Assembly: GCA_012845835.1 (NCBI GenBank)
Contig: JABAKD010000013.1
Coordinates: 15,504,732 to 15,568,731, forward strand
From: Undaria pinnatifida
Lineage: Eukaryota; Sar; Phaeophyceae; Laminariales; Alariaceae
Reading direction: 5' to 3'
DNA: 64,000 nt
The notes beneath the pieces were generated by a model that worked only from the letters and a program-made list of their open reading frames with translations, was not told the DNA's origin and did no database searches. How positions within the stretch are numbered: position 1 is the stretch's first letter; each line of letters starts with the position of its first letter. Shown one piece after another: positions 6,491 through 49,440 of the stretch. Both the position numbers and the translations under genes were made by a program.

Positions 6491-7870
6491 ACAGAATTTC
6501 GAGACAAAACAAAGCAGTTAGAGTCGTCTCTTCGGCCTTTGGCCCTGGCTTCAGCACGGCCGCTGACACTCCAGCCAGCCTCTGCTGTAGGCATGAGCGA
6601 ATGCGGTTGATTCGCAGCGAACTATCCCGCTGTGCTCGCTTCTATGTGGCCATTGTCCATGCCATTTCATGTCACCTCCCTTCTGTTTTGAGCTCGTCGT
6701 CGTACGGTTGAGGTACGAGGAAACCCGTACGTACTCGGTGAGAACAGCAGTATGTACGACGAGCATGAACGCCAATTGACGACATTGGCAAGCACACAAC
6801 AGCAGGTGTAGCAGCAGTAGCCGAAGGGCGAAACGTCTAGCACATAATGCAGCAACAAGTAGCAACCAGAACTACAGCAGATAGCTCAAAGTGCAGTGCG
6901 AGTGCCGTTGGCAAGTTTAGTCGTACACGCATCACTCTGTCCAATATATAGCAGAATTTCGAGACAAAACAAAGCAGGTAGAGCCGTCTCTTCGGCCTTT
7001 GGCCCTGGCTTTAGCACGGCCGCTGACACTCCAGCCAGCCTCTGCTGTAGGCATGAACGAGTGCGGTTGATTCGCAGCGAACTATCCCGCTGTGCTCGCT
7101 TCTATGTGGCCATTGTCCATGCCATTTCATGTCACCTCCCTTCTGTTTTGAGCTCGTCGTCGTACGGTTGAGGTACGAGGAAACCCGTACGTACTCGGTG
7201 AGAACAGCAGTATGTACGACGAGCATGAACGCCAATTGACGACATTGGCAAACACACAACAGCAGGTGTAGCAGCAGTAGCCGAAGGGCGAAACGTCTAG
7301 CACATAATGCAGCAACAAGAAGCAACCAGAACTACAGCAGATAGCTCAAAGTGCAGTGCGAGTGCCGTTGGCAAGTTTAGTCGTACACGCATCACTCTGT
7401 CCAATATATAGCAGAATTTCGAGACAAAACAAAGCAGGTAGAGCCGTCTCTTCGGCCTTTGGCCCTGGCTTTAGCACGGCCGCTGACACTCCAGGCAGCC
7501 TCTGCTGTAGGCATGAACGAGTGCGGTTGATTCGCAGCGAACTATCCCGCTGTGCTCGCTTCTATGTGGCCATTGTCCATGCCATTTCATGTCACCTCCC
7601 TTCTGTTTTGAGCTCGTCGTCGTACGGTTGAGGTACGAGGAAACCCGCACGTACTCGGTGAGAACAGCAGTATGTACGACGAGCATGAACGCCAACTGAC
7701 GACATTGGCAAACACACAACAGCAGGTGTAGCAGCAGTAGCCGAAGGGCGAAACGCCTAGTACATAATGCAGCAACAAGTAGCAACCAGAACCACAGCAG
7801 ATAGCTCAAAGTGCAGTGCGAGTGCCGTTGGCAAGTTTAGTCGTACACGCATCACTCTCAAGAGCCAACG
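6491..7870 (+). repeat. 460-bp tandem array, three units
   Basis: The landmark AGAATTTCGAGACAAAAC recurs at 6493, 6953 and 7413, an exact 460-bp period. Units differ by only a few substitutions, so expansion is recent. The last unit runs without a break into R1 copy B and the same junction sequence begins the window, so the units are part of the R1 structure. Conserved minus-strand frames of about 104 codons merely reflect near-identical DNA and are not called as genes. Confidence 0.9.
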
Positions 7871-8371
7871 AGAGCCAGGGCAGGGGCCCCCAACACAGAA
7901 ACACGTGACAACCACGGCCAGCTGTCGATCGCGTAATTGGCCGGTAGTCCGTGCTTCGGTGGGTGTATCGGAAGTCGTTCGTAGTACTACTGCTGTAGAC
8001 CGTCGAAAGACCACGTGACATGTGACATCCCGTTCTGGTGGCAGCCTCGCCAGTAGACCCCCCAAAAATCATTTTTCTTTTCTTTTTCTTGGCCCCATGC
8101 ACCCATTTCCTTTCCTTTCTCTTCGTTGTTCTTTGTTTCTTTTTTCCAATTGACTTGCGTCTGTTGTGCGTATGCGTAGTGATAGATACTACGTGTGATA
8201 TATACGTGGTAGTCTTTTGGGTGGCAAGCGGTATAGTCGGTTTTCCCAGGCGCGAGTAATGAGACGTATGCACCGGTATGGACCTGGCACATCGTATACT
8301 GACTCCCGATTTCACTTTTATATGTTTCTGGTGGAGGCATGAATTGCGTCAGCTGTGATTTATGCGTGTAC

Positions 8372-8482
8372 CACCTTGGGTTGTTTGTGTTTTTCCCTAG
8401 GGTATTCCTCTGCTCCAGAGTGACTGGAACCAGTCCTGTGACCACGGACTGGATTGTGCGAGTTAATGTGAGAACAACAACA
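8372..8482 (+). repeat. SINE-D-like dispersed repeat, copy 2
   Basis: It is the counterpart of 548-665 inside R1 copy B, with the same CTGTGACCACGGACT core and GAGAACAACAACAAC end. Confidence 0.7.
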
Positions 8483-8561
8483 ACTGAAATATTGCCTGTT
8501 TCTTGACCTTTCAGCTGCTTCCTGCAAATTTGGTTTTTCTGCCAACACGATTTTGAACCTT

Positions 8562-8992
8562 TTCGCGATTTTTTCTTTTTTTTTGTCTAGTAAGTTGATT
8601 TGCCGCTAATTTGCCGCCTGTGCATTAGTTGCGGAATGGTCCAGCTTTAGCTTTGCTTTGATTACCACCATTTGTTTTGTAGTTGGCGAAGCTTCATCGG
8701 CTGAGATCTGGGCTTGGCTCATCAGCTCCACACCTCCCAGCACCCCATCGCAGCGCTATAGCTCACAGCAACGAAGCGCCGTGCAGTGCCCTGCGGCTCA
8801 GCTCAGCAGCGCACCGCAGCGCAGCGCTAGCTCAGCAGAGCGAAGCGCTATGCTTTGCCGTGCTCTGCCGTCGCGATCGTTCGTTGTTCATGATATCTAA
8901 AACTCCGCGTAGGCTGATATTTAGGTATTTGGCGCTTTATTCTATATCGCGTCAACCATCGTAATATCATACAATATGGGGGAGGGGATGTA
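8562..8992. other. Segment present only in R1 copy B
   Basis: Copy A joins GATTTTGAACC directly to CTATGCAAAGATCC, while copy B has about 431 bp here. No terminal inverted repeat or target duplication is visible, so it may be an insertion in B or a deletion in A. Its middle (about 8745-8880) is a low-complexity stretch of AGCGC and GCCGTGC words that resembles 10925-11015. Confidence 0.7.
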
Positions 8993-9033
8993 ATCTCTAT
9001 GCAAGGATCCTGTTTTGTTTTAATCAATTGTCA

Positions 9034-9362
9034 GCCGGCCGCCCCGGTGGTCTAATGGTTTTACCCTCGAATACCTCCAACGTTTGGTTGTCCTTGAGTT
9101 CGACACCCACCACGATGAAGTTTGATTTCATTTGCGAAAATGCAATCAAAAAAAGAGATCAACTGCTGAGAGCGCCTGCTAGGTACAATTCGACGCGAGT
9201 CGACGAGGGAAGAAAATGCTCGATTCTCCTCGCGGTAAAAATGAAGGCACGTGATGAAGTGGGGAGGGAGGAGGAGGGCCCGCTATGTGACCCCGGATCT
9301 GAGTTACGACTGGGAGGGAGCGCGATAATGGTGCGGGGATGATAAATGGGATGAAGAAATAA
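9034..9362 (+). repeat. SINE-B, copy in R1 copy B
   Basis: The A-box head CCCCGGTGGTCTAATGGTTT and B box GAGTTCGACACCC are followed by the same body as 779-1115. It duplicated as part of R1 rather than by separate insertion. Confidence 0.8.
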
Positions 9363-10151
9363 AAATGTCAAAGAAAGGTATACCAGGTATGATTATTTCT
9401 ACCAGTAAATAATATGTCAGTCTCTGGGGAAATACGCACGGCACCATCAGCAGTCGTCATGGTAGAGACACTCCGGATATTATGTATTGAGGGGACGCGT
9501 CCGATTTCGACAACGTGAAAGCACCCACGAAGCAAAGATAGCAGACACACATATCCCGCCTTCTCGAGAAAGAACAGAGAAGAAGCGCTACGCCAACCTC
9601 CCGTACGAGCAAAGCCACCCCCGCACCTATCTTAGACAACGCCGACGCAACGAGAGATCGCCCTCCTCTTCTTCGTTTTTCTCCTCGCCCGCAACCACGC
9701 AGACCAATCAATGCGACAGCCTTCACGTAACAAACAAAGCAATCTTCTTCCAAAACCTCGCCGGCTGACATGGCCCCATGTCGACGTTTGATGCAAACCG
9801 ACTTTGCATCCTGTCGACTTCGAACCTCCATTGCCACGGGGACAGCAGTGCAGTCTCTTCATTAATGCCAAGTCCTCTTTTGTTTCGCCTAGAGGCGACG
9901 CAGGTTCTCAATAATACTATTTTCGGTATTTTTGTTTGATAGATGCCAACTTTTACCTGACGGCGCATTTAACAGTGTATTTGCCTATCCTTGCCTTCTT
10001 TGTTGCATAATATTACGTTTTTTTCTGTCAAATCATGACTTTCATAATCCCATGTTCGTATTAAACTCTTGGCATTACTTTAAAGTTCAATGCATGCCAA
10101 ATCGGACAGCTACACCTTAAGTTGTCGAAGTGCTGCCCTGCCCTTCCCGAA

Positions 10152-12025: not shown

Positions 12026-12804
12026 GATATTACAAATCTTGCCGCGTTTCTCGAGTCACAGCCACAGCAGCTACGAACGTGCCATACCAGCTCCTGAAGC
12101 ACCCCTACTAGCGCTGAAGCTACCCACCATCACCAGCCACCAGAGTTCCTCTTTGGAGCACGAGGGAACTGTTGTTATTCCCCTGCTTGGGAGTCGTCAA
12201 GATTTTAAAGAATTCGGACCAGAGAATCGAGGGGTTTCCTTGAGTACGTACGTGATCGATATTCTGCCGGTCAAAACCATCGGGGCAGGCCATACCCGAG
12301 AATATACGTCGAGGGCGATCGATCGAGATCGCAAGAGCGAACAAATCGCCTCGCACGCGCCAGCACCAGCACCAGCCGCCCGTCTGCGGTGTACTGCATG
12401 AGGTGAGGGGGTGTACAAGACAATGACTTTTGACGGGATGTGGTGTCTGTACAACAGGAAATCTCTCCTACTCGCACTTGTACTTTGTACGGGTGCTCTG
12501 GTTGTTCTGGAACAAAAGGGCACAGAATTAAGTACTTGTACGTACGTACCATATTCGCTGCTGTACCTGGCACCAGGCAAAACCGCACGTCCGTCTCGTG
12601 TTCCTGTCCACCCACCACACAACAACACAACAGCCGACGTAAATCAGCCGGCGCAAGCACGATACTTATTTTGTACCTACTGTGCGGGGTTGAGAACTTG
12701 AACGGCGGTGGTATCACGCAGCACCTGGTACCTGGTGCCAGGTATCAGGGAGTGTGCATATGGTAAGGCACCCACCACGAGGCAGTTCGGTACGTAAACT
12801 ACTG
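12026..12804. other. Unassigned; weak open frame on plus strand
   Basis: The plus-strand frame continuing from the MITE to 12401 has no clear GC3 bias or domain. The rest holds a cluster of TACCTGGTACCTGGT-type words near 12725-12750. No gene is called. Confidence 0.4.
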
Positions 12805-13095
12805 TATATTATAAAAATTAAAGTACACTCCAGCTGTGAGATCGAATATTTTGTCGAAACTCATCTTTGCAAGCTGTGTGTGATACTCCGATCGCGCGTA
12901 TTACGGGTTGTGTGTCCTCATTAAGGATATAGGTCGGCGACTCCCCTTGCAACTACAGTGTAGCTATCAGGGTCAACAGGGTGATGTTTGGCAGTCGGTG
13001 CGCGGAAACTATAAAACCCGTTTTTGAGGGGGACAAAATCTGACAGCTGTGGAAGGAAATGCATCAGTTTATCAAATGAATCCTGTACGTCGAAT
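12805..13095 (-). repeat. SINE-C, long copy
   Basis: On the minus strand it ends in the family terminus TATAATATA and extends upstream through the core to a segment containing GACAAAATCTGACAGCTG and the GCGCGGAAACTATAAAACCC monomer-like sequence. It is nearly identical to 18765-19062, including the point where similarity stops. Confidence 0.85.
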
Positions 13096-13129
13096 AACCG
13101 GTGACGGGAGGGCGGAGTTTTTAAGGACG

Positions 13130-17108: not shown

Positions 17109-17531
17109 TGTAAGGAAATAGACTAAAAATGTTGCACAACAAATGCTACTCGAGCTATTTCCTTCTGAATAAACTCGTTTTTCCACCACATTCTCCCCCT
17201 CTAAACCTGACATATTTCCCAGATTATGTCAGGAACCCCGATGCGATACCCAGTATCCAATGCGACATTTTCGGTATTGGAGTGACTTGCAATGATCCTA
17301 TACATTGCTCTTATCGTTGTTTTTAAGTGGTTGAGCTTTACAGGTTCTTAAACGTGAGAAAATCCCTTTTTTTCTTTTCCTGGGAAAGACGGTCAAAATC
17401 GAACCAGCGACCTCACTGTCCATAATCTCACGTCCTGCCGTCGACGCCATTGTGAGGAAGTCGTAGACTAAAAATGTTGCACAACAAATGCTACTCGAGT
17501 TTCTTCCTTCTAAACTCGTTTTTCCACCACA
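17109..17531 (-). mobile_element. TRIM-2: 423-bp miniature LTR retrotransposon
   Basis: Two direct repeats, 17109-17190 and 17451-17531, start TGT(A/G)AGGAA, end CCACCACA and share a core with GACTAAAAATGTTGCACAAC. CGTT is duplicated at 17105-17108 and 17532-17535. Read on the minus strand, the first bases after the 5' LTR are ATGGCGTCGACGGCAGGACG, a plausible tRNA primer-binding site. The last bases before the 3' LTR are the purine tract TTTAGAGGGGGAGAA. With no coding capacity it fits a TRIM that relies on enzymes from an autonomous relative. Confidence 0.85.
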
Positions 17532-17590
17532 CGTTGGCCGATCGCTGATTGACTGGAGCGCGTAGAGCCAGCAACACCTGGAGAGGATCC
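17532..17590 (-). repeat. 174-bp satellite, terminal fragment
   Basis: CGTTGGCCGATCGCTGATTG resumes the satellite after TRIM-2 and ends near 17590, where unrelated sequence begins. Confidence 0.75.
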
Positions 17591-18764: not shown

Positions 18765-19062
18765 TATATTATAAAAATAAAAATACACTCCAGCTGTGAG
18801 ATCGAATATTTTGTCGAAACTCATCTTTGCAAGCTGTGTGTGATACTCCGATCGCGCGTATTACGGGTTGTGTGTCCTCATTAAGGATATAGGTCGGCGA
18901 CTCCCCTTGCAACTACAGTGTAGCTATCAGGGTCAACAGGGTGATGTTAGGCAGTCTGTGCGCGGAAGCTGTAAAACCCGTTTTTGAGGGGGACAAAATC
19001 TGACAGCTGTGGAAGGAAATGCATCCGTTTATCAAATGAATCCTGTAGGTCGAATAACCGGT
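18765..19062 (-). repeat. SINE-C, long copy in TATCGATA repeats
   Basis: It is nearly identical to 12805-13095. It lies within the degenerate repeats and directly beside SINE-A at 19080, indicating nested insertion. Confidence 0.85.
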
Positions 19063-19079
19063 GAAGTATTTGTTCGCAC

Positions 19080-23269: not shown

Positions 23270-23548
23270 TTTTGATCAAAACCAGGCCCCCTTTCCCTTC
23301 ACAGCTGTCAGATTTTGTCCCCCTCAAAAACGGGTTTTATAGTTTCCGCGCACAGACTGACTAAAATCATCCTGTTGACCCTGATAGCTACACTGTAGTT
23401 GTAAGGGGAGTCGCCGATCTATATCCTTAATGAGGACACACAACTCGTAATGCGCGCGATCGGAGTATCACACACAGCTTGCAAAGATGAGTTTCGACGA
23501 AATCTTCGATCTCACAGCTGGAGTGTATTTTAATTTTTATAATATACT
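23270..23548 (+). repeat. SINE-C, long copy
   Basis: It runs from TTTTGATCAAAACCAGGCCC through the family core to the TATAATATA terminus. The open frame starting at 23487 begins MSFDEIFDLTAGVYF and runs out of the element. The poly-C monomers immediately upstream look like the 5' part of the full-length form. Confidence 0.85.
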
Positions 23549-25675
23549 GAGTATATATTTTTCATTGGGTGTTCCGTACTCTACAGGCTTGTGTTCATTC
23601 ACCCATCCATATCCAACACGCCCAGTGTTCGTGAAGATTTTTCATTCTAGAGAGGTACAAGCTCTGTGTCCACAAACTACGCCGCGGAGATAGAGCCTCC
23701 TAGCTTGCCGTACCATGCAATGACAACCATACGGAGACGAAAAAAAAGTGGAACCTACATGGGTCTGGGGCTCTATATGGGACGTCGTCTGGGGCTCTAT
23801 ATGGGACGTCTTCGGCTTGAGGTTTGGGGGGAGCGATGGCCGTATCACAATATCACAGGCGTTTATTATGTAGACTACTAGTCTAGATTCTTGTACTATT
23901 CAATGGTTGCACCGATAATATCCCCACCCGCGCGGTACACGAGGTGCGGCTATACAGCAGCAGCATGACGTGATTACACGCCAGCAATACGAAGGACAAC
24001 CTTGCACACCAGCCGATGCCACATGCTTCAAGTCTCCTCTGCGTCGGCTTCTGGGAGAGCTGCTTCCTGTATGGCACCTAATTAGCCGAAAGTTGCGGTT
24101 TTCCGGCAATATCAGTCGCCTCTGCGTATGTATAAGGCAGGCATACCGGGGAGGAAAAAACAAAGTAGTTGATGTAAGTGCATTGCTGTAAGAGTTCAAC
24201 GCAACAGCGGCGCTCAACCCGCTTTGAGCAGCGTGTGTACGAATGTGTGCAGGTCGGTTCGTTGCATCACCCAGGTACGTGGCGCATTCCGATGTACGTC
24301 CGAAGCCAGTTCTTCGGTAATTATTTCTGGTAAACAGCAACGAGGAAATAATGTTCTGCTTGGTGATAATGTGCTGTGACCGACTTTGTCGGTACCGTTG
24401 TGATTTATCATGAACCGTACCTGGGGCATATGTTTGGTTCAAGTCTCAGTTGGTGGTGAGTGGTAAAGCCTGTATGCCCTCCCTCCAGGCATATGTACAC
24501 GTATGAACACAACGTAGACCCTGGGATATTTGCAGGGAATTGCTTTTGTTACATACCCTGGTATTCTATATGGTTGTGCCCTTATGGTGTGGGAGAGCGG
24601 CGGGAAATCTTCGAATAGGGACTGTACGTCGGGGAAAACCCGCAATTACAAGTGTAGGTCATCTGACTGTAGGTCGGTGGCTAGCGCAGGCTGATGCCAT
24701 CTTTCTTTAAAATATTAACACCGGCAATTCAATTGTCGTATGATTCAGCCCGTTGTCACGAAAGGGGACGAGGAGTCTTCGAGCGGGGAAATAGCCAGCA
24801 GTAGTTCCCCGACCCCACGCGCAAACGCGAAAGCAAACGCAAATCAAATACGATCCAAAGTTTATACGGTATCCGACACTACACTATGCTGCTATTAATA
24901 ATCATCTTGGCACCCATGGCATGTGTCTCTCGATAGAATAATCGAGAAGAAGACTGGTCTTCTTGCAGTGTCATCATACGATAGGGCATGCTATGCTCGT
25001 GCCGTTCAACTCCCTGCGTTGGAATTCTACAGTAGCGGCATCACCCCCTATCAATAGCATATCAATAGCCTATAAAATAGCCTATTAATAAATAGCAGCG
25101 GGCCTTGTTCTAGCTGATGATGCTGCAATTGTAATTTATACAAGATTCCCCTTCGGGAAGTGCCCAGGGGAGTTGCGCAAGAACGAATACTCGGTATTTT
25201 TTCCGTCTGAAGTCCCAATAGGTAGCTACCAATAGGGTTAATTGACCCTGGTGCGGCCCGTTTATATCGACCAAAAACACGCGAGAAGTGCCACACAATC
25301 AAACGTGTACGAGTAAGGAGAGGGTACGGCCGTACGCCTACCCCTATGTTTTTAGTATTGCGCCTCGGATATCCCGCTTACCCCTTCAAAAGTTCCCCCT
25401 TAGCCCGGGCTGATTCGTGAAGCCGATCCTGTAGATATTTTTGTCGCTTGTTTTCGACAGATTGTTCCCCTTCAACTCCTTTGGGGCTCAATCACGTTAA
25501 CAACACGAACACTAGAAAAACCGTTTTTTCAACCGTCTAGTAGTCCAGTATGAGCGTGGAGCAGTACGAGGTTTGTCGTGCGTTCCTTCAACCGTCGCTC
25601 AGACACAATACACACCTGTTATCACCCTGCCCAGCCGCCCGCGTTAAGACGTGTGGCCGATTCTGCAATCGTCAT
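23549..25675. other. Unassigned, with small tandem and hairpin
   Basis: No exon-like sequence is seen. A 27-bp unit containing GGGGCTCTATATGGGACGTC is repeated at 23763-23815. A hairpin with AAGAAGAC paired to GTCTTCTT is near 24945-24962. Short TATCGATA-family fragments lie at 25040-25090. Confidence 0.5.
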
Positions 25676-27235: not shown

Positions 27236-27526
27236 ATGGAGGTTTCGCCGCCTACACCACCCCCGGAGAAAAGCCGCCGCGTCCGCAAACACCGGGAACG
27301 TAACGTTCCAACCAGGGGAAAATGTGGACCAATGGGGGGACTCCTTGGCGACTGCATGCCAACAGGGCAAGAGGTGGACGACACCAAGAGGGGTCGCAGA
27401 GCCAGAATAAACCGCAAAAAGCTCGCGAAAGCCCCTCAAAGCGACGAGAATGACTTGTGCCGCAAGCTGAAGTCTTTTTTTTGCCACGAGCCCAATAGGA
27501 AGGTTGGGTTCGACGACAAGCCTACG
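27236..27526 (+). CDS. 5' exon of a putative RVxF-motif protein (family member 1)
   Basis: An ATG opens a frame of 97 codons with a clear preference for G or C in third position. It ends at a strong splice donor (ACG then GTGAGA, GT at 27527-27528) in phase 0. The peptide is basic and proline-containing (SRRVRKHRERN, GRRARINRKKLAK). It closes with RKVGFDDKPT, which matches the [R/K]VxF protein phosphatase 1 docking pattern. The minus-strand exon at 61699-61976 ends the same way (RSVSFNEDVK then a donor), with V eight residues before the junction in both. The natural partner is the phase-0 exon at 30583-30984, which would make an intron of about 3.1 kb holding SINE-C, SINE-A and family E copies. 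A read-through stop at 27541 is the alternative. Function is not recognised. The phosphatase link is inference from a short motif. Confidence 0.5.
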
Positions 27527-27744
27527 GTGAGAATATTTTAACGAATGCTTAATGCCGTTGTCGTTTTGGTGAAGAAACGGTGAAGAAACGGTGAAGAAAG
27601 AGGCAGCCAGACAAGCCACGATGTTAGTAGCGCCTTGGGGCCGACCTGTACCTATCCAATTGAGGGGCCCTTGAACAGTAGTCCAAAATCGTTACACTTC
27701 CCTTTGTGGTTTGGGACAGTATTCGTTGCATACCTAATAATCAC

Positions 27745-27900
27745 AACTAATAGTATCTAATAGTACCATATATTAAGAGTAGTATGCAATAGTACCATGT
27801 ATTGAGAGTAGTATATAATATTACCAAATAATATTAAGAGTAGTATACAATATTACCTAATAACATTAAGAGTTGTACCAAACAGTACTTAATATCAATA
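27745..27900. repeat. Degenerate AATAGTACC/TTAAGAGTAGTAT minisatellite
   Basis: Four to five units of about 35 bp alternate AATAGTACC or AATATTACC with ATTAAGAGTAGTAT. Confidence 0.7.
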
Positions 27901-27911
27901 GTAGTATCTAC

Positions 27912-28039
27912 AATTAAAAAAATTAAAATACACTCCAGCTGTGAGATCGAATGTTTTGTCGAAACTCATCTTTGCAAGCTGTGTGTGATACTCCGATCGC
28001 GCCTATTACGGGTTGTGTGTCCTCATTAAGGATATAGGT
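27912..28039 (-). repeat. SINE-C, medium copy
   Basis: Similarity runs from the AT-rich terminus to GGATATAGG and stops, so its 5' end differs from the long and the short copies. Confidence 0.8.
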
Positions 28040-28458
28040 AATGTTATAGTACCTAATATATACTTTAAATAGCATCGAATACTACCTAGGCCGTGGGGTT
28101 GCTAATGACTATCGAATACAAAGTCAGTTTTTGGTTTGAGGACAAGAGCTCCTGACGTCAAGTCAGGTCAGCTCAGCTCAATCAAGCCAGGAGCCCCGGA
28201 AATTTTGAGATGCTACCCGTAGCGTATCACGCGTATCGTATCGTATGACCAAAAATCCTGACAACTTTTGCGTTTTACGTTACGGTATCGTGCGGCGTCT
28301 TTTTTCGTGCGGTGCGCACAACTGCACGAAGACACAACAGCTACTTCGATTTCCACGCTAGCTATCGAAACCCGCACCGAATTGCGTGGTTATCAGCCGC
28401 GTCAAACCGACCAGCATGCCAGATTCCACACAGCGGATGCATACCTTGGACTGTTGTA
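28040..28458. other. Unassigned, inside the proposed intron
   Basis: No coding signal is seen. A CAGGTCAGCTCAGCTCAATC-type low-complexity patch lies near 28165. Confidence 0.45.
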
Positions 28459-28744
28459 GCCGGTCGCCCCGGTGGCGTGTCAGGTTATCCTCGAGCCCGG
28501 TATAGGTCAGTTTCGTGAGTTCGAGCCCCGCCGAGTGCATACTCGCATAAATTCGTTGGGACATTTTCTTGTACTCAAATTGACTTGCGGAAAGCGCGAG
28601 AGCGTGAGTTAGCAACATTCGATGAAAAATCGACGAGCAGTGGGAGTGCTGAACCCTATGCGCGATAAAAATTGAAAGCAAGAACCGGGGGGGAAAAAAG
28701 ACGACACCTGTGACCACGGCTTGTCCAGAAGCTGGAAAGTAGAA
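28459..28744 (+). repeat. SINE-A, best-preserved copy
   Basis: The A box (GGTGGCGTGTCAGGTTATCC) and B box (GAGTTCGAGCCCC) are intact, and the body ends in GCTGGAAAGTAGAA followed by an A-rich tail. Confidence 0.9.
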
Positions 28745-28847
28745 TTGTGCGAAAAAAAAGAAGAAAAGACTACATATTTGGTTCTAGTGCGGGACTGCTG
28801 TGTTGTAGAAGAACGGTGCCTTCAAAGCCATTGGCAGTACGGTACAG

Positions 28848-28985
28848 AGCACCCAATAAAAATATAGGTACCCGGCGATCCTTGGCTTCTTACACGGGAG
28901 AGAGCGCGTTTTACACTAACTTCAGTGCAACGGGTCCAGTATTTCTTGTATTCTTGCGAGTATCATCTTGCCTTTCTTACCACCC
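28848..28985 (-). repeat. Dispersed repeat family E, reverse copy
   Basis: Read on the minus strand it has CAAGAAATACTGGACCCG, TGAAGTTAGTGTAAAACGCG and CTCTCTCCCGTGTAAGAAGC, matching family E order. Confidence 0.6.
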
Positions 28986-30409
28986 TGTTTCTTAATACTA
29001 TAGTCTAAAGTCTATAGACCTCCTTAACTGCTATAGTATAGTCTAATGGTTGGCGTCAATCCGTGCAGAATATACCACCTCTTGAGCCTAGCGCATAACA
29101 CGCGAGACAGCACACTGTTTCAGCGCGTGTTTCCTCCAAGAACAAGAGGGGTACACAATACGAAGACGGCGGTTTCGGGAACATACCGTGGAGATCTTTC
29201 CATAGATGCATCCTTCGGTGTTTATACTCTCCTCGGTGTTGAAAAAATCAGCTTGAAGTTGTGTTTGAGGGTGTGTGTTTAACTTGCGTGATATACGGCG
29301 TTCATTCTATTCCGGCTGGACGAAGCTGATCCCAACTCCAGCAGACCTTGGCATACAATAACTAACTGATAGCGTCTAAAGTAGAGCTTACAGCGTCGCC
29401 CATGGGTACGCACACCCTGCAGAATGCTCGACAGTCGAATGCTCGTCGCCAGGAGGAGGCAAGGCGTGTGACGCATCTGCTTTGGTGTTTTCACTTCTGT
29501 TAGGTTTGTATTTGTATGTGCTGCATTTGAAGAAACGTGCATGTAACACATAAGCCGCCACCATGTAATCGATGAATCGTTCTTGTTCTAAGTCTGTCGC
29601 CCGAAGAAAACACCCCACCACGAAAGAAACACCCTACCAAAAAGCTGAAGGAGCAACATTGATTTATACGTCTTCCCGGGATATAGTCCAAGTATAGTAG
29701 AAGAATACAAGGAGGTAAAGATGATCGGATGCATGAGGCAAAGGAGGAGTGGGCTGGTGCGCGAATCATCCAAGCTTGTCTCCCGCAGTGTTACCATGAC
29801 CACACAGTTTATCGAATTACTGCGGAAACACTCCACAAGGACCGACAGAAACATTCCCCTTATCGTCCTTGGTCTTGTTGTTGTTACTACAGTGTTGTTA
29901 CTTCAGTGTTGCTATTGTTACTGTTCTCTTTACTTGTATTGTTACTGCTGCTGCTATTGGTGCCGTTGTTGTTGTTGTTGTATTTTCGGAATTGGCGCCC
30001 GTTTGGTCCGGTGCTACTACGCCCCCCCACGGTTTGATTTGACTTCACCCATAGGTAGGACTTCACCTGGTTTTTGTGACGCTCCACTTGGGACGGTCTA
30101 CAACCCCTCAACAGCTTACCCTGAGATGAAAATCAAGCTGCGGCCCGATGAACGATTCCAGTAATAACAACAATAACAACAACAATAACAATAGCAATAT
30201 CAACACCAACAAGACCAACAAGACCAACAACAACAACAACAACGTCGGCTAGTGCCAGCGTTGAGGAGCCCCGTCAGTCAGATATACTTTAACCACTGCT
30301 GCCCCTACCGTCTGGCATAATGTACCCAATATGAGTGGTCACATTCTGCGTCTTTTGATTGCGGCCTGCTGTGACTTTGGAGGTTGGCATCAAACCAACA
30401 CCGTCCCTG
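28986..30409. other. Unassigned, with TTG and AAC tracts
   Basis: A TTG/CTG-rich patch at 29870-29990 and an (AAC)n-type tract at 30160-30245 dominate. The 147-codon frame at 29721-30164 is mostly translation of the former. No exon is called. Confidence 0.5.
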
Positions 30410-30582
30410 TCCCTGATCACTGGCCGTACTTGGTGCCTGGCCAACTACGTTCCGTTTCCTGTCTCTAGAAGTTGGTGTCAAAACCAACTTACACCTTCCC
30501 TTTTCCTGTATCTCTGACCTTGCGTGGTGTCTACCCAATACCGTCCGTCCCGTTTCCCGTGTCTCTCCGTTAATTGTTTCAG
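30410..30582 (+). repeat. Pyrimidine-rich intronic repeats and splice acceptor
   Basis: Three imperfect units (CCGTTTCCTGTCTCT, CCCTTTTCCTGTATCTCT, CCCGTTTCCCGTGTCTCT) precede TTAATTGTTTCAG, a strong 3' splice site whose AG is at 30581-30582. Confidence 0.6.
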
Positions 30583-30984
30583 GTTCTCCTGATCGAGAGC
30601 ACGCGGGAGCGATTCCCGCCGACGATCAGGGGGATCGAGCTGAAGCGAGAAGCCTTCTGGACGGTGTGGGAGGTCCGACAAAACAGGAGAAAATGGAATA
30701 GGCATACCGATGCCCACAAGGAGGAATCCACCGGCTTCAGCTGCGACTGCAAGGAATGCCAGGCGGAAGGGGAAGACCCCGACTTTGTGCCATTCGACCG
30801 CCTCGGAATCCACAAGATGCTCCAAGCTCTCTCCGAGGGAGACACTCTGCCACTGCCGCCGCCTAAGACAAGTGATGGGAAAAAGAGGTTGCCGCTGCCG
30901 GCTGTAGCAAGCGATGGGAAAATAGGAGTACCGCGGGCGGTTGTAAAAGGTGGTGGGAATGCGAGAGTATCTGATTCAGAGTGA
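30583..30984 (+). CDS. 3'-terminal exon of the VLIES family (member 1)
   Basis: The exon opens in phase 0 after a strong acceptor and reads 133 codons to TGA. Codons are GC3-rich. It begins VLLIESTRERF, continues ELKREAFWTVWEV and RKWNRHTDAH, then a cysteine cluster CDCKEC, and has a low-complexity tail with repeated DGK(K/I) and PLP motifs. The minus-strand exon at 36098-36394 aligns along most of this length (VLIESRRQRY, KREAFYSNADLAFFKRAW, CGCPCC), so this is a real protein family rather than chance. A V-L-I-x-S-R stretch about ten residues after a VxF motif reminds me of predicted stramenopile proteins. That is from memory. A likely polyadenylation signal AATAAA lies at 31126-31131. Biochemical role unknown. 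Confidence 0.65.
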   Translation, partial: VLLIESTRERFPPTIRGIELKREAFWTVWEVRQNRRKWNRHTDAHKEESTGFSCDCKECQAEGEDPDFVPFDRLGIHKMLQALSEGDTLPLPPPKTSDGKKRLPLPAVASDGKIGVPRAVVKGGGNARVSDSE

Positions 30985-31125
30985 TGTATATTTTGGGGTT
31001 CTTGAACCACGGACACACCTTCTGTGCGACCGTCGACTGTAATATGCGATGGAGAAACGAGACGAGACCGTCTCAGTCAGAGTGATGTAGAACATGGGGG
31101 TGTTGGGTCAGAGACTCGAAGCTAA

Positions 31126-31131
31126 AATAAA
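31126..31131 (+). terminator. Candidate polyadenylation signal
   Basis: AATAAA lies about 140 bp after the stop codon of the exon at 30583-30984. Confidence 0.35.
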
Positions 31132-31167
31132 CATGATGTTGGTGTTTGTGTTATTGTTGTGTTTTGA

Positions 31168-31290
31168 AATGATGGTGCGTGTCAAGACTCTGTCTATGTG
31201 ATAAATGTGTCTATGAGGAGAGATGCATGAATGATGCGTGTCGAGACTTTGTCTTTATGACGAGAGATGCGTCTGGATTTGAGGTTATGA
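31168..31290 (+). repeat. Short tandem duplication
   Basis: GCGTGTCAAGACTCTGTCTA and GCGTGTCGAGACTTTGTCTT, each followed by GAGAGATGC, form two units. Confidence 0.6.
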
Positions 31291-31314
31291 GCCTCGACAT
31301 GCATCCTTCTTTCA

Positions 31315-31700
31315 GCATTGGTGTTGTACCGCAGACGTACTACTGTGTGGGCATCAAATGGGAGTAAAGGTGGTGTCGCACCAAGGACGCACCACGGACG
31401 GTTATCTGTATTATGTACAAACTACCTGGTAGAGATCAGAGCAATGTCAGGTATGCTGTACGAGAGCTTGAAATTGGAGTATAGTTGGTATTGTACCACA
31501 AACATTTGTCTGTCTGCTTGGGCCCTGAAAACGGAGTATTATTGTTGTACCCCAGATATGCTGCGCGAGAAGACGTAAACGTCGGAGTTTATTGGTGTTG
31601 TTGTGTTGTTGGTGTTGTACCACAGCTACCTGCCTGTATGAACTGTAAATCAGAGTCATGTTGGGGTTTCACCAAAGACAAATGTTTAGAGTAAGATTGG
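31315..31700 (+). repeat. Degenerate GGTGTTGTACCRCA minisatellite
   Basis: TTGGTGTTGTACCACA or a variant recurs about six times at irregular spacing, often followed by CTGTNTGGGC and GAGTAT words. It lies downstream of the coding exon. Frames across it are not trusted. Confidence 0.6.
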
Positions 31701-32825
31701 TGTTACCACAATTATTTTATAAGCTTAAGATTAGACCTTACATGTTTTGCGTGGACTTAACGACAAAGCTTTTTGGGTCTAGTACAACGGGCGCACTGTG
31801 CGAGCTCAAAACTATACGTAACGGGGGCAGGTTAGACGAGAGTAAGACCGCGTTGAGGGGTGGCTGTTGAAGTTGGAAGTGGGGTGAAGCCTCAATGTGC
31901 CGAAGTGCGGACATAGGCTAGGATTGCCGTCGTGCGCATTACGTTGCACATTTTGTTAGTGACAACTCGCGTCAAGGTGCACCGAATATAAGAGAAGGGG
32001 AGGGGAGGGGGGGAGGGAGAGATAGGCGGGGCAGGGCGCGGGGGAGTGGTGTTTATGTGTGAAAGCGAGGGCCATTCTATACGGCCAATGGCAACATTGT
32101 CGCCCGCAAAGCATTGTTGTGAGTTCGTTTCGTGCGCGTTCGTTGTAACTACAAGTCGCGCGTTTCTTGGCACAGCACCACTGTTTTAGCAAGTAGAAGC
32201 CTGTATGTAGCTGCTTTTTCCTAGCAAAAAAGCGGATGTTAACCTGCATCTTGTGTCTGGAATGCACCGCGTTGAAGTGTCGCTGCTGCCCTGGCTTCGT
32301 CTTTGTGGAGGTGCAAGTAAGTGCCGTTTTGTGTTGATGTTTTTTCAATTCTGAAACTCAATCAACACAGCTAACCCTTTGGTCACGATCACATTATCAT
32401 AGCGTTTCGATACCATCAACGGTCAGAAGAGAGCTTGAGGCCTTACTTGTTACTGAATACGCTTCACCGCATTACCTGGTACCAGGTATCTGGTAGCGTT
32501 TGATTCGCCGATCAGATTTTGGTGCTATTTCTAGCGGTTGTTCCACATCGCTTCATCAGCTGTACGCTTGCCTGTGCGCGTGCATCTAACTATACGCCAA
32601 CATTTAGTCCATTGGCTGCTTTCGTCTTGCTGCACTATTTATACCAGATCCAGCCACATTAATTAGGACATCTAGGGAAGCGCAGGCCTATGGCATTGAC
32701 GCTGCAGTACAATATTTAATACCTAGGTCCTGGCATGCACTATGTACGGCCCGATCAACAACTCTCGAGATTCGAAATATTATTATATGCATGTAGCTCT
32801 AGGCTACCATGGGACAGCACAGGAC
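31701..32825. other. Unassigned sequence
   Basis: No repeat match or exon-like segment was found, apart from a G-rich patch at 31990-32045 and a TACCTGGTACCAGGTATC palindromic word near 32473. Confidence 0.5.
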
Positions 32826-32960
32826 ATCAGATGAGAAAACAGGGCAATAAGAAAGCCAGGCCGAGATATGCACACAATAACACTTACACAAAATCCGGGA
32901 TAAAATTAGTGTTGAAAGCACCCTCTTCCGAACAAGAAAGCCACTCTGGCTCAGTACAGT
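32826..32960 (+). repeat. Dispersed repeat family E, copy 3
   Basis: AATAAGAAAGCCAGGCCGAG, GTGTTGAAAGCACCCTCTTC and CAAGAAAGCCACTCTGGCTC follow family E order. Confidence 0.65.
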
Positions 32961-34335
32961 ACACAACAGTGCAGCACAGTAGTACAGTATTTGTTTGCTA
33001 TTTGATGTCCTTAGGTGTATGCGTGTAAGCGCAAGCAATTGGCACTTTCTTCGTGCGCCTAAACGTGATCATTCGAACACGAAACTAAGGGCAAGTGGGC
33101 CTTGCCTTATGATCGCTGGCATAATCCCATCGCGCCTACAAAAATTACCGGCCACAAAAAAACAAACAAACGCTGCCATGTATTAATACTAATAAGATAA
33201 TAGTGCGTGCCACGTGCATAACGTGCATTTGGACCCTTCGGTCAGGTGTTGCACAAGAAGGGAGGTTCGGTGAAGGCGACTACACTGCTACTACTATTAA
33301 CGGAGCACAAGCCAAACCCAACCCCTAACCCTAAGCCAAACCCAACCCGCCCGTTCTCTCTTCGCTATTCGATTCCGCGAGATGTAGTCACGTACAAAGA
33401 ATATCTCCCAAATGGAATTTGACACGCACTAGAATAATACACCATACCCGATACGCTGGTACCCTGGTGCATTTCGTCGTTTTACAGAATGGCAAAGCTC
33501 TGGCAACAGGCAACAGGCAACAGGCAACAGGCAGCAACAGCTTCGTCTCCTAACCAGATAGTGGTGGCCTCCTTATGGTACCGCCGGTATGTGCCAGCCG
33601 GTATGTGCCAGCAAACAATACCGGCAGTAAAACATACCGGACAATGGCCTATTGGGTATATTACCAATAGTGACATTTGTTTAGCGGGCTCCGATCGTGC
33701 CAATCGGTATCACCGGCGCTTTTCAGGTAGTAACAAGACACTACTCAGCCGGTAGTTTAGGGAGATCCCTACCGCATCTCACTCGATACGCATACCTCGT
33801 CTCCGACGCGAGCGCCTAGTTCTTGAGTCCGGTGATATACGTATGGGTCGCCTTGCCTACCCAACCTTTCACTGTATCACCCTTGTGTCCTCCCTTCGTG
33901 CATTGATTCGCACGGGACGTCTCGGTTCGGGATATATCAGCATCAACCACCAGCCCTACCGAAAGAGACAACCCACGTAACCCTTTCGCCACCGACAAAA
34001 ACGGTTCAACACTACTGCTGCCCACGAAACGCGGATGGATGCAGTTCGAACCGGGCTAAAAAACTCTTGTTTTTGGCCAGAAGCTTAACCTATTATGTAC
34101 GGCATGGTCTGTCCCATATTAGTGCAGTATTCAGAACACGGTTTTCTCTTGTTTGATGCAAATCTCGAGCCATAGTTTGTAATACCCCAATCACTTAAGG
34201 CTGTGTGGGCTTTGACGGTCAGAAAGGGACAAGTTTTCTGACATAAGTATAACATCCCATCGGTCTTAAGTGTTGTCGCTCACTCTGGCAGTAAACAACG
34301 CACAATGTCGGTATTCGCAGTGCCCCAATGTTTGG
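32961..34335. other. Unassigned, with telomere-like words
   Basis: CCAACCCCTAACCCTAAGCC with flanking CCAAACCCAACCC at 33312-33350 is a short degenerate telomere-like patch. GGCAACAGGCAACA units lie at 33501-33535. No gene is supported. Confidence 0.5.
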
Positions 34336-34441
34336 TCAGCCTTGCGCCTGACGCCACGTCTTGTACTTGCCGGCGAAGACGTCGCAGAAAGTTCGATGAC
34401 GCTTAGGGCGGCCGAGAACGTTGTTCGACCTGTCCACTGCG
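34336..34441 (-). CDS. Candidate 3'-terminal exon, unknown protein
   Basis: On the minus strand the acceptor-like GCTAAACCCGCAG (with a possible branch-point CTAAAC) precedes a frame of 35 codons to TGA. The frame is strongly GC3-rich (for example GAC GTC TTC GCC GGC AAG TAC). The peptide includes RSNNVLGRPKRHRTF and DVFAGKYKTWRQAQG. No upstream exon was identified and I do not recognise the protein. Two other frames are open here, but they lack the bias. Confidence 0.35.
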
Positions 34442-34499
34442 CTGCGGGTTTAGCAACGTCCAGCACAGCACAGAGGATGCCCCCCTGTTATTTCGCCCG

Positions 34500-34755
34500 T
34501 CAACCTTTCACTGTATATCCTTTATCTTTCATTGAAAAAAGCACAAGTATCTCTGTCACCTTTAGACTTTACCCTTTACGTCGTTTCAACTTTCATTCCA
34601 AAAAAAGAAAAGAAAAAAAAGACATTATTCCCTTCATTTTTCAACCTTTCACCCTTGCAACTCTCACCCTTTAGACCACACTTTGCAACAATTCAACTCT
34701 CACCGTTTCACTCGTCAACCCTTCACCTTCCACTCATCCACCTTTCTTCCTAAGA
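34500..34755. repeat. Pyrimidine-rich CAACCTTTCACC repeats
   Basis: CAACCTTTCAC, CAACTCTCACC and related words recur over 250 bp. Serine, proline and phenylalanine frames across it are artefacts. Confidence 0.6.
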
Positions 34756-35479
34756 ACTGCAAGCATCACCGCCAGGGCGTCAAATCCAGCTTAATAAGTC
34801 GTGTCGGTTGTTCTCATCGCAATCCCGACGCGCGCCCACCCAGCTAGAACAATTGGCCGAGTCACTGTGCCGCCAGTAAACCAGTGCGACCGAAGCGAAT
34901 GACATTCGCTACAATACCACAATCTGCACCGCTGCCAAACGGCGCTACCCAATCTACAGGCCATGCGCTAATTCTGCACTAGCACGTTAGGAGACTGAAC
35001 AGATTGTGAACACGGCCGACTTAAGACCAAAAATAAAGCACCAACTTCGCTCACGTAGATTTGAGGAAAAAAACTGCTTAAAAGATACAATGTTTAAAAA
35101 AAAAACGTCGTGTAAATATGTTCCGTTCTCGCGAAGAAAGCAAAAGCGCACAAAACCTGATACAAAAAAATAACCTAACTATACGTATTACGATAAACAA
35201 CCCAGGGTTATGTTTTACGGAAAAAACTCCGAAGTAAACAAGCTTCTTTTAAAAGCGTTCCTATCCGACCTAGAATCGATACATACATGGCAAAAAAAAT
35301 ACACCTAAATCTTCTGAGCACATATTATACAACGTGAAGACTTACATACTTTTGTACACGTGGTGCGTCCGTACAAAACCAAAACGGATGGTTTTCCCCT
35401 TATTACTCTCCAAAAAAGCACAGGTAGACGTCTGCTTGGTGGAATGGTGCAGCATCGATGGTAGTCAGGTGTTATTCCA
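34756..35479. other. Unassigned sequence
   Basis: Nothing recognisable was found. A-rich patches occur around 35060-35170. Confidence 0.5.
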
Positions 35480-35690
35480 CAACGTATCCCTCCCATGCCC
35501 ATTTACTGTAATCATCCCTGTCTACGGTTATACCTACCCTCCCCATGTCCATCATTTACCGTACCTATCATCTTCGCGTCCATTTACCGTATCTATTATT
35601 CCCACGACCGTTTGCAGCGCCTGTCCCTTCAACGTCCACTACTTGCTATACCTATCCCTACCTGTTCGACAACCAGCTGACTTTTCCCCC
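35480..35690. repeat. Degenerate CCATTTACCGTACCTATC repeats
   Basis: CCCATTTACTGTAATC, CCATCATTTACCGTACC and CCATTTACCGTATC recur, and CCCATGTCCATTTACTGTAG returns at 36104. It explains the 152-codon plus-strand frame at 35334-35792, which is not called. Confidence 0.6.
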
Positions 35691-36097
35691 TGGTCCCTCC
35701 AAGAGTACTTTGGGGTGCATTTTGTGACTGAGGCGACCTGCAACGTACCCGCTCCCCTGGCTGCTGCGGGTATCACCGACTCATTCCCGTAACCAAGCTA
35801 CCCGTGTACGAGACTACAATATGTTGGCGGGCGACCGATGTTAAAAAACGCCAATTTGGGGTCGAGATTCAGTTTATCATATTCGGTGCATACACCAGCC
35901 GTTTTTTTTCAACAGCAAGCAGTGTTTCATTTTTTTCTCCGAGCTCCCATCGAGTTTCTTTCTCTTGTCGCACAGATTGAGGTGCATTCTTCCGCCAAAG
36001 TATTATTTTCCATTAGAAGACTACGAGTCAATATTTTAAAAACTACATACATACTGGTACCAGATATTTCTGCAAGTGCGGGTGTCAACTGTATCCC
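35691..36097. other. Unassigned, 3' flank of reverse exon
   Basis: No repeat or gene is recognised. If the exon at 36098-36394 is real, this is its downstream flank. Confidence 0.45.
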
Positions 36098-36394
36098 TCA
36101 TTCCCATGTCCATTTACTGTAGTCCTGCAAGAGCAGTGCATCGTTCGCACGGACATGCCCCGTCAGCCCCCCCACGTGCGCTGGCAGTACCCTCTCCTCC
36201 TCCTCATGGTCCTCTTCGGTGTTGTCGCAACAAGGGCAGCCGCACCTCATGAGTCCATCGGTCGGCCCTTCACTCACCCGAATGTGCAAGACCCAAGCCC
36301 GCTTGAAAAAAGCCAGATCGGCGTTCGAGTAGAAAGCTTCGCGCTTTGCGGCCAGACTACCGTAGCGCTGGCGTCTAGACTCGATCAAAACTTC
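36098..36394 (-). CDS. 3'-terminal exon of the VLIES family (member 2)
   Basis: The acceptor-like CACACATGCCTCACGATGCAG (minus strand) precedes 98 sense codons and TGA, strongly GC3-rich. The peptide starts EVLIESRRQRYG, then AAKREAFYSNADLAFFKRAW, a cysteine cluster CGCPCC and an acidic stretch with HEEEER. It aligns with the exon at 30583-30984 at both the VLIES start and the KREAF and CxC segments, and starts in the same phase. The equivalent RVxF-bearing upstream exon was not found on this strand nearby, so the gene may be incomplete or its intron long. The plus-strand 93-codon frame here is a shadow. Function unknown. It is the clearest evidence that a small gene family inhabits the region. 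Confidence 0.65.
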   Translation of the reverse strand, partial: EVLIESRRQRYGSLAAKREAFYSNADLAFFKRAWVLHIRVSEGPTDGLMRCGCPCCDNTEEDHEEEERVLPAHVGGLTGHVRANDALLLQDYSKWTWE

Positions 36395-43021: not shown

Positions 43022-43407
43022 TTGACCACACTAAACTGGCACTCCGCAGTAAAGGACATATATATATACCGCACTAACAAGCTATAACAAGCTATAACAA
43101 GGGGCCACGACTGCTGTCGAGGGGATTAGTCCAGCCCGGAGTATGACTACTATTAATACTGCTGACATTTTTTCGGGTGCCCCGAAGGAAAAGCTGACGT
43201 TTTGTCTTTTTCCGTGTTCTCGTCGGATGCACGTCTGTCTGATTATCGCTATCTACAAAGGGCGGAGTGGTACAGTTTTTGGTGTGCGCACCAGACGTGA
43301 TAAGATTATTCGATGCTGGCCGATCGCTACAGACCGTGCTGGACCGCGTTTTCGTGTAAGATTTACACAGGCCTAAATATGCCATGGGACATGTGAAGCA
43401 AAAAAAA

Positions 43408-43560
43408 GGGAAAGGGAAAGGGAAAGGGAAAGGGAAAGGGAAAGGGAAAGGGAAAGGGAAAGGGAAAGGGAAAGGGAAAGGGAAAGGGAAAGGGAAAGGG
43501 AAAGGGAAAGGGAAAGGGAAAGGGAAACGGAAACGGAAAGGGAAAGGGAAAGGGAAACGG
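43408..43560. repeat. (GGGAAA)n microsatellite
   Basis: About 25 hexamers with four GGAAAC variants near the 3' end. The Gly-Lys and Pro-Phe frames across it are artefacts. Confidence 0.95.
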
Positions 43561-44112
43561 AAAACGCGCATTATGAAGGATACAGAGCCGAAGTTTGGGC
43601 ACACTATTACGTTACACTAAAACCTACCGGTAATTGTCTGGCCTCAGCCAAGGCAACAGAAGGCTAACTCGAACTTGCTCTCCGCCAACGGACGGACGTG
43701 CTGCAGCATGCTGTCTCCGAGTACCTTTGCCACAGGCCGTACAGGGCAGCGTCGTTACGTTGTGTTTGCCGTTCCACAGTGTGTAGTATGATTTTTATTC
43801 TTCAACACCACAACCCGTACAGGACAGCACTACTACTGTTCTGTAAGAAGACCGCCGCAGACCGTACAAGGCAGTATAATGTCGGCCCTTCGCCAAGTAA
43901 CCCGGAGCAGAGGGTTAGGGATGATTTCTCAGTTGAGATAGGGTATGTTCCACACTAACTTCAGTATTACTGCTCTCGGAATTCTTGCTTCCCCCTTTTG
44001 TTTGTAGCTGTGCTTCTTGTAGTGCAGTAAAACTATTAATACTAATAATAGTATTATTGTTTATTACCACGTTATGGTGCATAGTAATAATATTAATAGT
44101 GTATTATTATGT
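43561..44112. other. Unassigned, with partial family E copy
   Basis: GTATGTTCCACACTAACTTC and GAATTCTTGCTTCCCCC at 43935-43988 match the reverse of family E. The rest is AT-rich, with ATTAATAATAT words at 44030-44110. Confidence 0.5.
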
Positions 44113-44230
44113 GCTATAAGAAAAATGAAAATACACTCCAGCTGTGAAATCGAAGGCTTCGACGAAAATAATCTTTGCAAGCTGTGTGTGTTACTCCGAT
44201 CGCGCGTACTACTGGTTGTCGTATAGATCG
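44113..44230 (-). repeat. SINE-C, medium copy
   Basis: In plus reading it runs from ATGAAAATACACTCCAGCTG through GCAAGCTGTGTGTG to CGATCGCGCGTACTACTGG. A GAATATTTTG to GAAGGCTTCG change marks it as diverged. Confidence 0.8.
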
Positions 44231-45149
44231 GCGTGCATTACTATAATAGTGTGTTGCAGTGAATTTTATGTTTTATTGTTCTGTGTGAGACGACAAGATA
44301 TAACACCAGCCCGTCGTTCGTCTTTGATGCTTTCCACGCGCCTGACAACAAGGAGACATCAATCTCCGTTGTGTGTCTAAACTGAAAGCGGTCGGTTTTG
44401 TTCACTGAAATACATGCCATGCATAGTGTATGTTTCCTACAATTCACCCGAGAAAAAAATAATTTTCCTTCGTACAATTCACATCCACCCGAGAACGAAA
44501 GGGAGGGCCTATAAGTAGGTAGGCGTGGTGTGCTTGCATAACACAGCTTGCTTGCAAAGTTGTGTTTACACCATTCAATCGTTCGTACGCACATCTGAAG
44601 TTTTCAACTTTTTTATAATATATATAGTCTCATTACGTTTGGTGCCCACGCAGCAAAATTCAAAGAAAACTAATACGACGAACGATAGAATACGTCAGCT
44701 GTGAGTTTGACCACTCACGGAGTGGATAGTAATTGTCGATGCTCATACAAAGCATGTATTATGTGTTACACAAACGTCAGCTGTCGACCGATTGGCTATA
44801 CTAATGGTAGTCGCCGCTCAGCTTTGATAGGCTATTAGCACGCATAGGGCTGTCCTAGTTGAAGTTTTCTCACATACATTACGAGTCGCGCATTGCCGCA
44901 ACAACCCGCCGTCCGCATAGCCCGTCGATGGTCGCAAAACAGGCTGCTACCAATAAAACATGGAGGCTAAACAAAAGGGAGACTGGATCGTCAAACATAT
45001 GAATAAATAAATGTGTATGGAATTAATAAGCTCGCCCAGAGAAAATTGCGTGAAACAAAAAAGTAAACCACAGCAGTGTGCCACGAAACCTTCTGGTGCT
45101 TGTTAGCAGTAAATAGAGATCAGGCGCCCTTTTACTTTTTTTTTTTCCC
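44231..45149. other. Unassigned, possible remnant SINE-C
   Basis: CGTCAGCTGTGAGTTTGACC and TTGTCGATGCTCATAC at 44690-44760 are faintly SINE-C-like in order. No gene is seen. Confidence 0.35.
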
Positions 45150-47794: not shown

Positions 47795-48154
47795 CAGGGC
47801 TTTTCACGGGTCATGACCCGACCCGCGGGTCGGGTCAAGGGGGTTTCAAAATCTCGCGGGTCGGGTCGGGTCGGGTCAAGAGGTTTTCAAAATCTCGCGG
47901 GTCGGGTCGGGTCATGACCCGCGAGATACGGGTCACTTCGCGGGTCAAGCCATAATGACCCGTGAGTTGTTTTGGGCTGACCCGCGGGTCAAACCCGCGG
48001 ATCTAGCCGGCGGATCCGCCTTTTTCAAACTTACAGCTGAGAGCCACGTTGATGCCGTGCAGGCGTCCCGCGGGTCAGGCCCGCGGGTCCGCCAATAAAA
48101 TACAAACATTATTTTTTCGGCTTCCTGCCTCCCTCGTGCCGATGCTCCGATCAT

Positions 48155-48845: not shown

Positions 48846-49440
48846 TTGTAAACAAGTTTTATAACTAGCTTGCTCGTCGGGTCGCTCGTCGGGTCGACCT
48901 GGTGGTCTAACGGTACGGGCATGTCCATGCATGTGGGTTGCGGATTATTTCCTATTTCTCGCGCGCACACCACATAGCATAATCATCAGCAGCAGCAGCT
49001 GCAAACAATGCCGGTAAAAAACGCAGAGAACACGACATATTGGGAAAAGTACGAGGGACCAAGGACCAACCAACCGACCGAGGTATACATGCTTTGACCC
49101 GTGACTTTTTGACTTTGACCCGTGAGAAATGTCACGGGTCAAGTTAACGTGACCCGCCAGACGACCCGAATCTCGCGGGTCACTCGGATTGTCGCGGGTC
49201 GGGTCGGGTCGGGTCAGGACGATTACAAAATCTCGCGGGTCGGGTCGGGTCGGGTCAAGACGTCTCGAAAATCTCGCGGGTCGGGTCGGGTCGGGTCAAG
49301 ACGTCTCGAAAATCTCGCGGGTCGGGTCGGGTCGGGTCAAGACGTCTCAAAAATCTCGCGGGTCGGGTCGGGTCAGCTGACCCGACCCGACCCGACCCGA
49401 CCCGACCCGCGAGATTTGACCCGACCCGTGAAAAGCCCTG

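Follow-up and report, generated by a model that had tools for sequence, protein, structure and literature searches.

Exons and gene models at the locus

We analysed a window of 64,000 nucleotides of the Undaria pinnatifida genome (contig JABAKD010000013.1, positions 15,504,732 to 15,568,731; C19:15504732-15568731 in the 511,146,479-base, 68-contig assembly that we searched as its own genome). The window holds four exons that would form two small genes, each with a VxF motif at the end of an upstream exon and a cysteine cluster in a terminal exon (Table 1). Exon coordinates, frames and splice sites were read from the sequence of the window. The four exons exist, and they are probably coding.

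Table 1. Features of the two proposed genes, with positions in the window
Feature	Position	Strand	Description
Gene 1 exon 1	27236-27526	+	ATG; basic N-terminal region ...NRKVGFDDKPT; phase-0 donor GTGAG; coding-like codon-position GC
Gene 1 VxF (VGF)	27503-27511	+	
Gene 1 proposed intron, 3056 nt	27527-30582	+	Holds dispersed repeats 27913-28039 and 28462-28758; putative join
Gene 1 terminal exon	30583-30984	+	VLLIESTRERF...KREAFW...CDCKEC..., stop; database relative P0004
Gene 1 cysteine cluster CDCKEC (CxCxxC)	30742-30759	+	
Gene 2 upstream exon	61699-61976	-	Ends ...PRRARSVSFNEDVK; phase-0 donor GTAAGC; 5' limit uncertain, frame open to 62334
Gene 2 VxF (VSF)	61714-61722	-	
Gene 2 proposed intron, 25,304 nt	36395-61698	-	Repeats and tandem arrays; putative join, ranked by profiles
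Gene 2 terminal exon	36098-36394	-	EVLIESRRQRY...KREAFYSNADLAFFKRAW...CGCPCC..., stop; database relative P0006
Gene 2 cysteine cluster CGCPCC	36227-36244	-	

The initial annotation had described terminal exons that start in phase 0 and end in a stop, and upstream exons that end eight residues from the V of VxF at a phase-0 donor, and both descriptions were borne out. The terminal exons follow CAG acceptors (TTTCAG in gene 1 and ATGCAG in gene 2) and are open through their stop codons. The upstream exons end in VGFDDKPT and VSFNEDVK, directly before their donors, and the eight residues are counted with the V. The upstream exon of gene 2 is 278 nt long, so that it does not begin in phase 0. GC contents of 0.58-0.62, 0.45-0.49 and 0.64-0.67 at codon positions 1 to 3 are coding-like for gene 1 exon 1 and for both terminal exons.

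The best reading of these sequences is that phase-0 splices, which we infer in both genes, connect an upstream VxF exon to a VLIES exon downstream of it. Gene 1 would then cover 27236-30984 on the plus strand and gene 2 about 61976-36098 on the minus strand, probably as a convergent pair. At least three family members had been proposed earlier. We gave up three separate members for two genes, since donor 61699 and acceptor 36394 lie on the same strand in the order needed for splicing, are probably parts of a single gene, and rank well as a join in the profile tests below; two convergent genes are thus the simpler account.

Paralogy of the terminal exons

The two terminal exons are paralogous. 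The alignment at VL(L)IES, KREAF and CxC that the initial annotation reported held up in a single-pair comparison, which gave a collinear alignment with 18 of 59 residues identical and an expectation (E) value of 9e-6, and none of 5000 shuffles scored as high. Common to both exons are LIES, KREAF and the CxCxxC spacing. Within the window as a whole this similarity is weaker than had been claimed: when 1506 window open reading frames (ORFs) were compared all against all, the pair had E 0.005 per query and ranked 844th of 5372 pairs, a ranking in which many better-scoring pairs are repeats and the pairs were not inspected individually. Hence, terminal-exon similarity alone is not outstanding in the window.

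Each terminal exon has one protein-database relative beyond the window's own sequence (a further entry, P0005, is the protein of the window itself). P0004, a 131-aa protein of a 546-base contig, is 81% identical to gene 1 over 41% of the joined query, and P0006, 68 aa, is 58% identical over 54% of the gene 2 terminal exon, in its C-terminal part. Both relatives retain the frame and the cysteines, and their ends nearly coincide with those of the window exons. No relatives of A1 and P0006 were found in viral_contigs, and none of P0004 in genome_contigs. At E 0.001 neither terminal exon matches anything in the own genome but itself; the gene 2 exon has one further match, at E 5.9.

These results also bear on whether the exons are remnants of decayed or repeat-borne sequence that make no functional protein, which we consider very unlikely. 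Repeats abound in the window and no convincing Pfam match came from the 20 open frames tested, which speaks for remnants, but none of the exons falls in the 20 of 34 direct repeat families or the 25 of 40 inverted pairs listed, the terminal exons have no second copy in the genome at the threshold above, and the database relatives keep frame, cysteines and nearly the same end.

The upstream exons are less well connected. Gene 1 exon 1 has just four weak further matches in the own genome (E 0.069 or worse), with internal stops in three of them, and the gene 2 upstream exon has seven (E 0.007 or worse). Five places on another contig (C36, L028-L032) match part of the latter exon at E 0.007-0.05, with one internal stop each; the three that were translated are near-copies of one another, and the group resembles a local gene or repeat cluster. 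The VxF pattern was not found in the two of these five loci where it was sought.

A wider VxF...PxR...W family and the probable place of the window genes in it

The initial annotation had pointed to a VxF followed by V-L-I-x-S-R in many predicted stramenopile proteins, and a motif of this type does exist, in diatom proteins and in the own genome. A family bait sequence was used in a protein search (E<=10, 322 candidates) and found 267 proteins at E<=10. Among the 120 bait matches listed (P0007-P0126), 118 fit the F...P...W pattern, P0018 and P0053 being the exceptions, and none has a precomputed Pfam domain. The organism label, where present among these 120, is that of a diatom, except for one ending in 'Kryp', which we take to be a dinoflagellate with a diatom endosymbiont. 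In the own genome one half of the bait found three loci at E 0.063, 0.094 and 0.36; one of these, used as query, led to a fourth, L011, which later searches recovered again. L008 matches L007 at E 1.3e-6, L011 at 0.0018 and L006 at 0.10.

The family string can be written V-x-F-x3-V-x-V-x-x-[VI]-P-x-R...W. In our alignment A3, made of the four own-genome rows and seven diatom rows, V7, P13 and W do not vary, and F3 and R15 are nearly constant. In L006-L008 a single open frame holds both the VxF and the P-x-R...W part, and in L011 a CAG acceptor stands directly 5' of V7; within 10 kb of L011 no convincing upstream VxF exon was found. The L011 family exon (G000:C33:8913671-8913814) runs on into a long Ala/Glu-rich protein with a 645-aa open frame. 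A Pfam scan of six bait matches and three own-genome members gave one sub-threshold match, in one bait match, and otherwise nothing, a PDB search with A3 returned no chain at E 10, and a limited literature search turned up no publication about the VxF...PxR...W domain. The family is real, and it was not found in Pfam.

If the window genes are spliced as proposed, both carry V1-x-F3. JOIN1 (27526 to 30583) gives VGFDDKPT followed by VLLIES, and JOIN2 (61699 to 36394) gives VSFNEDVK followed by EVLIES, which places V1, F3 and I12 in the family register in both. Gene 2 has V at position 7, R15 and Phe-Tyr at the W site, and gene 1 has P at position 7, T15-R16 and Phe-Trp. For comparison with other possible joins we scored all filtered phase-0 donor/acceptor pairs of the window within 30 kb (86,287, plus JOIN1 and JOIN2), and ranks are given among the joins scored by HMMER. 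JOIN2 ranked first of 55,891 with a profile of three own-genome loci, second of 58,187 with the three loci and 14 diatoms, and second of 55,358 with A3, for which 3 of 20,000 shuffles scored as high. With acceptor 36394 fixed, donor 61699 came first of 667 (8.8 vs 4.0 bits). When gene 2 was included in the profile and donor 27526 was fixed, acceptor 30583 came first of 469. From the ranks of the two joins, gene 2 is probably a distant member of the family, on evidence of moderate weight, and gene 1 may belong to it through its similarity to gene 2, a weak link, with no direct profile match.

Several observations count against this assignment. The invariant P13 is replaced by E in both window genes, and the WW site carries Phe-Tyr or Phe-Trp. 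JOIN2 scores 6-12 bits only; it ranked 9th of 55,666 with the four-loci profile and 111th of 58,234 when diatoms alone made up the profile; its score comes mostly from the donor exon, and acceptor 38362 outscores 36394 with three profiles. Among the 777 acceptors scored with donor 61699, 36394 comes fourth, after 17577, 3611 and 19327, of which the latter two lie within dispersed repeats and 17577 in none of the repeats listed. JOIN1 is at chance on the family profiles, ranking 1268th of 58,234 with the diatom profile (about 1 bit on first scoring), 3585th of 55,891 with three loci, 438th of 58,187 with three loci plus 14 diatoms, 34,267th of 55,666 with four loci and 2376th of 55,358 with A3, where 1394 of 20,000 shuffles scored as high. 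Of 731 donors scored with acceptor 30583 on a profile that included gene 2, 27526 came eighth. In addition, codon-position GC of the gene 2 upstream exon is nearly flat, and a V/I-x-F/W exactly eight residues 5' of a phase-0 donor-like site occurs seven times in the window under a loose donor definition, both exons included. Thus, the eight-residue coincidence says little unless it is taken together with the basic/acidic context and the family spacing.

These points would fit a different account, in which the terminal exons belong to a small conserved family and the VxF exons are unconnected with them, being parts of other genes or chance frames beside a donor-like site. The chance position of JOIN1, the flat codon-position GC, the seven motif occurrences and the lack of a convincing own-genome relative for either upstream exon all speak for it. 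Against it, both joins keep phase 0 and bring the residues back into the family register, JOIN2 is placed between 1st and 111th among more than 55,000 joins in all five profile tests, and codon-position GC is coding-like in gene 1 exon 1. We regard this account as a serious one, though on balance doubtful.

The number of genes depends on the long intron of gene 2. At 25 kb, it far exceeds the mean intron of 1203 bp that PMC6507550 gives for Saccharina, which tells against the join; with an intron of such unusual length by that mean, the 61699/36394 join is probable and not proven. A third gene, or more, could be formed if the upstream exon of gene 2 were spliced to another downstream exon and the true upstream exon of the 36394 exon had escaped recognition. 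A candidate partner is the minus-strand frame at 17494-17577, which follows a good acceptor, reads VLLALRAPVNQRSANVWWKNEFRRKKLE and then stops; with donor 61699 fixed its acceptor is the best of 777 (15.9 bits), and it is the top family-profile match of 2510 acceptor frames. We rejected this partner: its intron would be 44 kb, less likely still than 25 kb, and about 10 bits among 2510 frames is in our judgement near what chance would give; the frame is probably a chance one, and possibly another family exon. Donor 61699 is moreover far the best for 36394, and 57769, the one further VxF donor flagged on the minus strand between the two sites, has a GTAGGG donor and a stop shortly 5'. No convincing VxF exon closer to 36394, and no convincing VxxI exon closer to 61699, turned up when the window was searched for them, and a Pfam scan of seven open frames inside the proposed intron gave no match. 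Hence, three or more members are unlikely.

Possible docking on protein phosphatase 1 and other features of the window

In accordance with the joins proposed here, the two convergent paralogous genes would be transcribed, and their products would be small, largely disordered proteins that bind protein phosphatase 1 (PP1), as divergent members of the wider family. We hold this interpretation with even confidence. RVxF proteins dock on PP1, and according to PMC12185105 a subset continues across PP1 as an RVxF-PhiPhi-R-W string. By analogy, the VxF at the upstream-exon end would dock in the RVxF groove of PP1, the hydrophobic run with which the terminal exon opens (domain positions 9-12) would form an additional strand alongside the VxF, and the basic and aromatic residues after it would continue over PP1. 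The cysteine cluster, which follows the V of VxF at a distance of 58-61 residues, may hold a metal ion or sit near the active site.

The RVxF-PhiPhi-R-W proteins (Phactr, neurabin/spinophilin, PNUTS and PPP1R15) likewise have a VxF with nearby hydrophobics, then a basic and an aromatic residue. They form a class that rests on solved PP1 complexes, whereas the window genes and their family are known from sequence alone; the likeness is one of order and not of demonstrated homology. The spacing is presumably also similar to that of PPP1R15 and Phactr1. The joined proteins gave no Pfam match at E 10 and so no known RVxF-PhiPhi-R-W member, in agreement with the earlier description of a VxF exon joined to a VLIES exon in an unrecognised family; of that description the join stands as the best reading, and for gene 1 the family link runs only through gene 2.

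In Inhibitor-3 the active-site metals of PP1 are engaged by a CCC motif that follows the RVxF (PMC10066265), which suggests one possible role for the window cysteine clusters. Both have a cysteine motif downstream of the docking site; the CCC stands about 20 residues from RVxF in that account, compared with 58-61 in the window genes, and it is CCC rather than CxCxxC or CGCPCC, a comparison made via Pfam and PDB searches only. The same paper reports that more than half of RVxF regulators carry S or T at x, where phosphorylation weakens binding (PMC10066265). The x residue is S in gene 2 and G in gene 1.

Compared with the VxF...PxR...W domain, the register of V1, F3 and I12 is kept in both joins, V7 and R15 are kept in gene 2, the window genes have aromatics at the W site, and the L011 domain is likewise split by an intron. 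The window genes differ in the absent P13, in gene 1 also in the absent V7 and in the T at position 15, in a stretch from R15 to the aromatic that is 2-7 residues longer than in L006 and L008 (counted by eye), and in the C-terminal cysteine cluster. The intron falls between positions 8 and 9 in the window genes and just before V7 in L011, and L006-L008 have none there.

The PP1 interpretation also has structural results to answer. A PDB search found nothing for gene 1, and for gene 2 a single chance-like match at E 0.32. This match of JOIN2, to eIF2 subunit 1, was set aside as chance. The structure predicted for the gene 1 terminal exon had a mean predicted local distance difference test score (pLDDT) of 47.4 and a predicted template modelling score (pTM) of 0.30, which ruled out a fold search with so poor a model; this low-confidence, one-exon model is the sole basis for the proposed disorder.

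A broader and improbable extension can be drawn. The string VxF-x3-V-x-V-x-x-[VI]-P-x-R...W may mark a large uncatalogued stramenopile class of PP1 regulators, in which some genes of this brown alga place the docking residues and the completing strand on separate exons, so that splicing could switch PP1 binding on or off; the window pair would be a side branch, with a cysteine cluster that reaches the PP1 active site or blocks it. If the docking interpretation set out above is right, a domain found in many diatom proteins and at several loci of the alga, and lacking a Pfam entry in the members examined, would gain a testable function, PP1 docking, and a route into algal phosphatase regulation would be opened. 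The window pair also illustrates how genes with very long introns may be missed.

Elsewhere in the window, Rfam and tRNA scans found nothing, and Pfam gave no convincing match on the 20 open frames mentioned above, which include 61534-62334, the frame that holds the gene 2 upstream exon. The single match among them was a weak AcnX at 23903-24445 (13.6 bits vs a cut-off of 31.5). Four blocks over about 2 kb, at 5-1706 and 7826-9964, are duplicated about 8 kb apart with 95-98% identity. A dispersed repeat occurs on both strands, with copies about 65% to 98% alike, at 12804-13104, 18765-19064, 23292-23547, 27913-28039, 44116-44242 and 60804-60955. Tandem arrays comprise a 460-base unit in three near-identical head-to-tail copies at 6492-7858 (98% matches), an AAAGGG hexamer array of 26.5 copies at 43405-43563 (98% matches), and two arrays of 41-base repeats rich in CGGGTCGGGTC at 47826-47913 and 49192-49374, about 1.3 kb apart.

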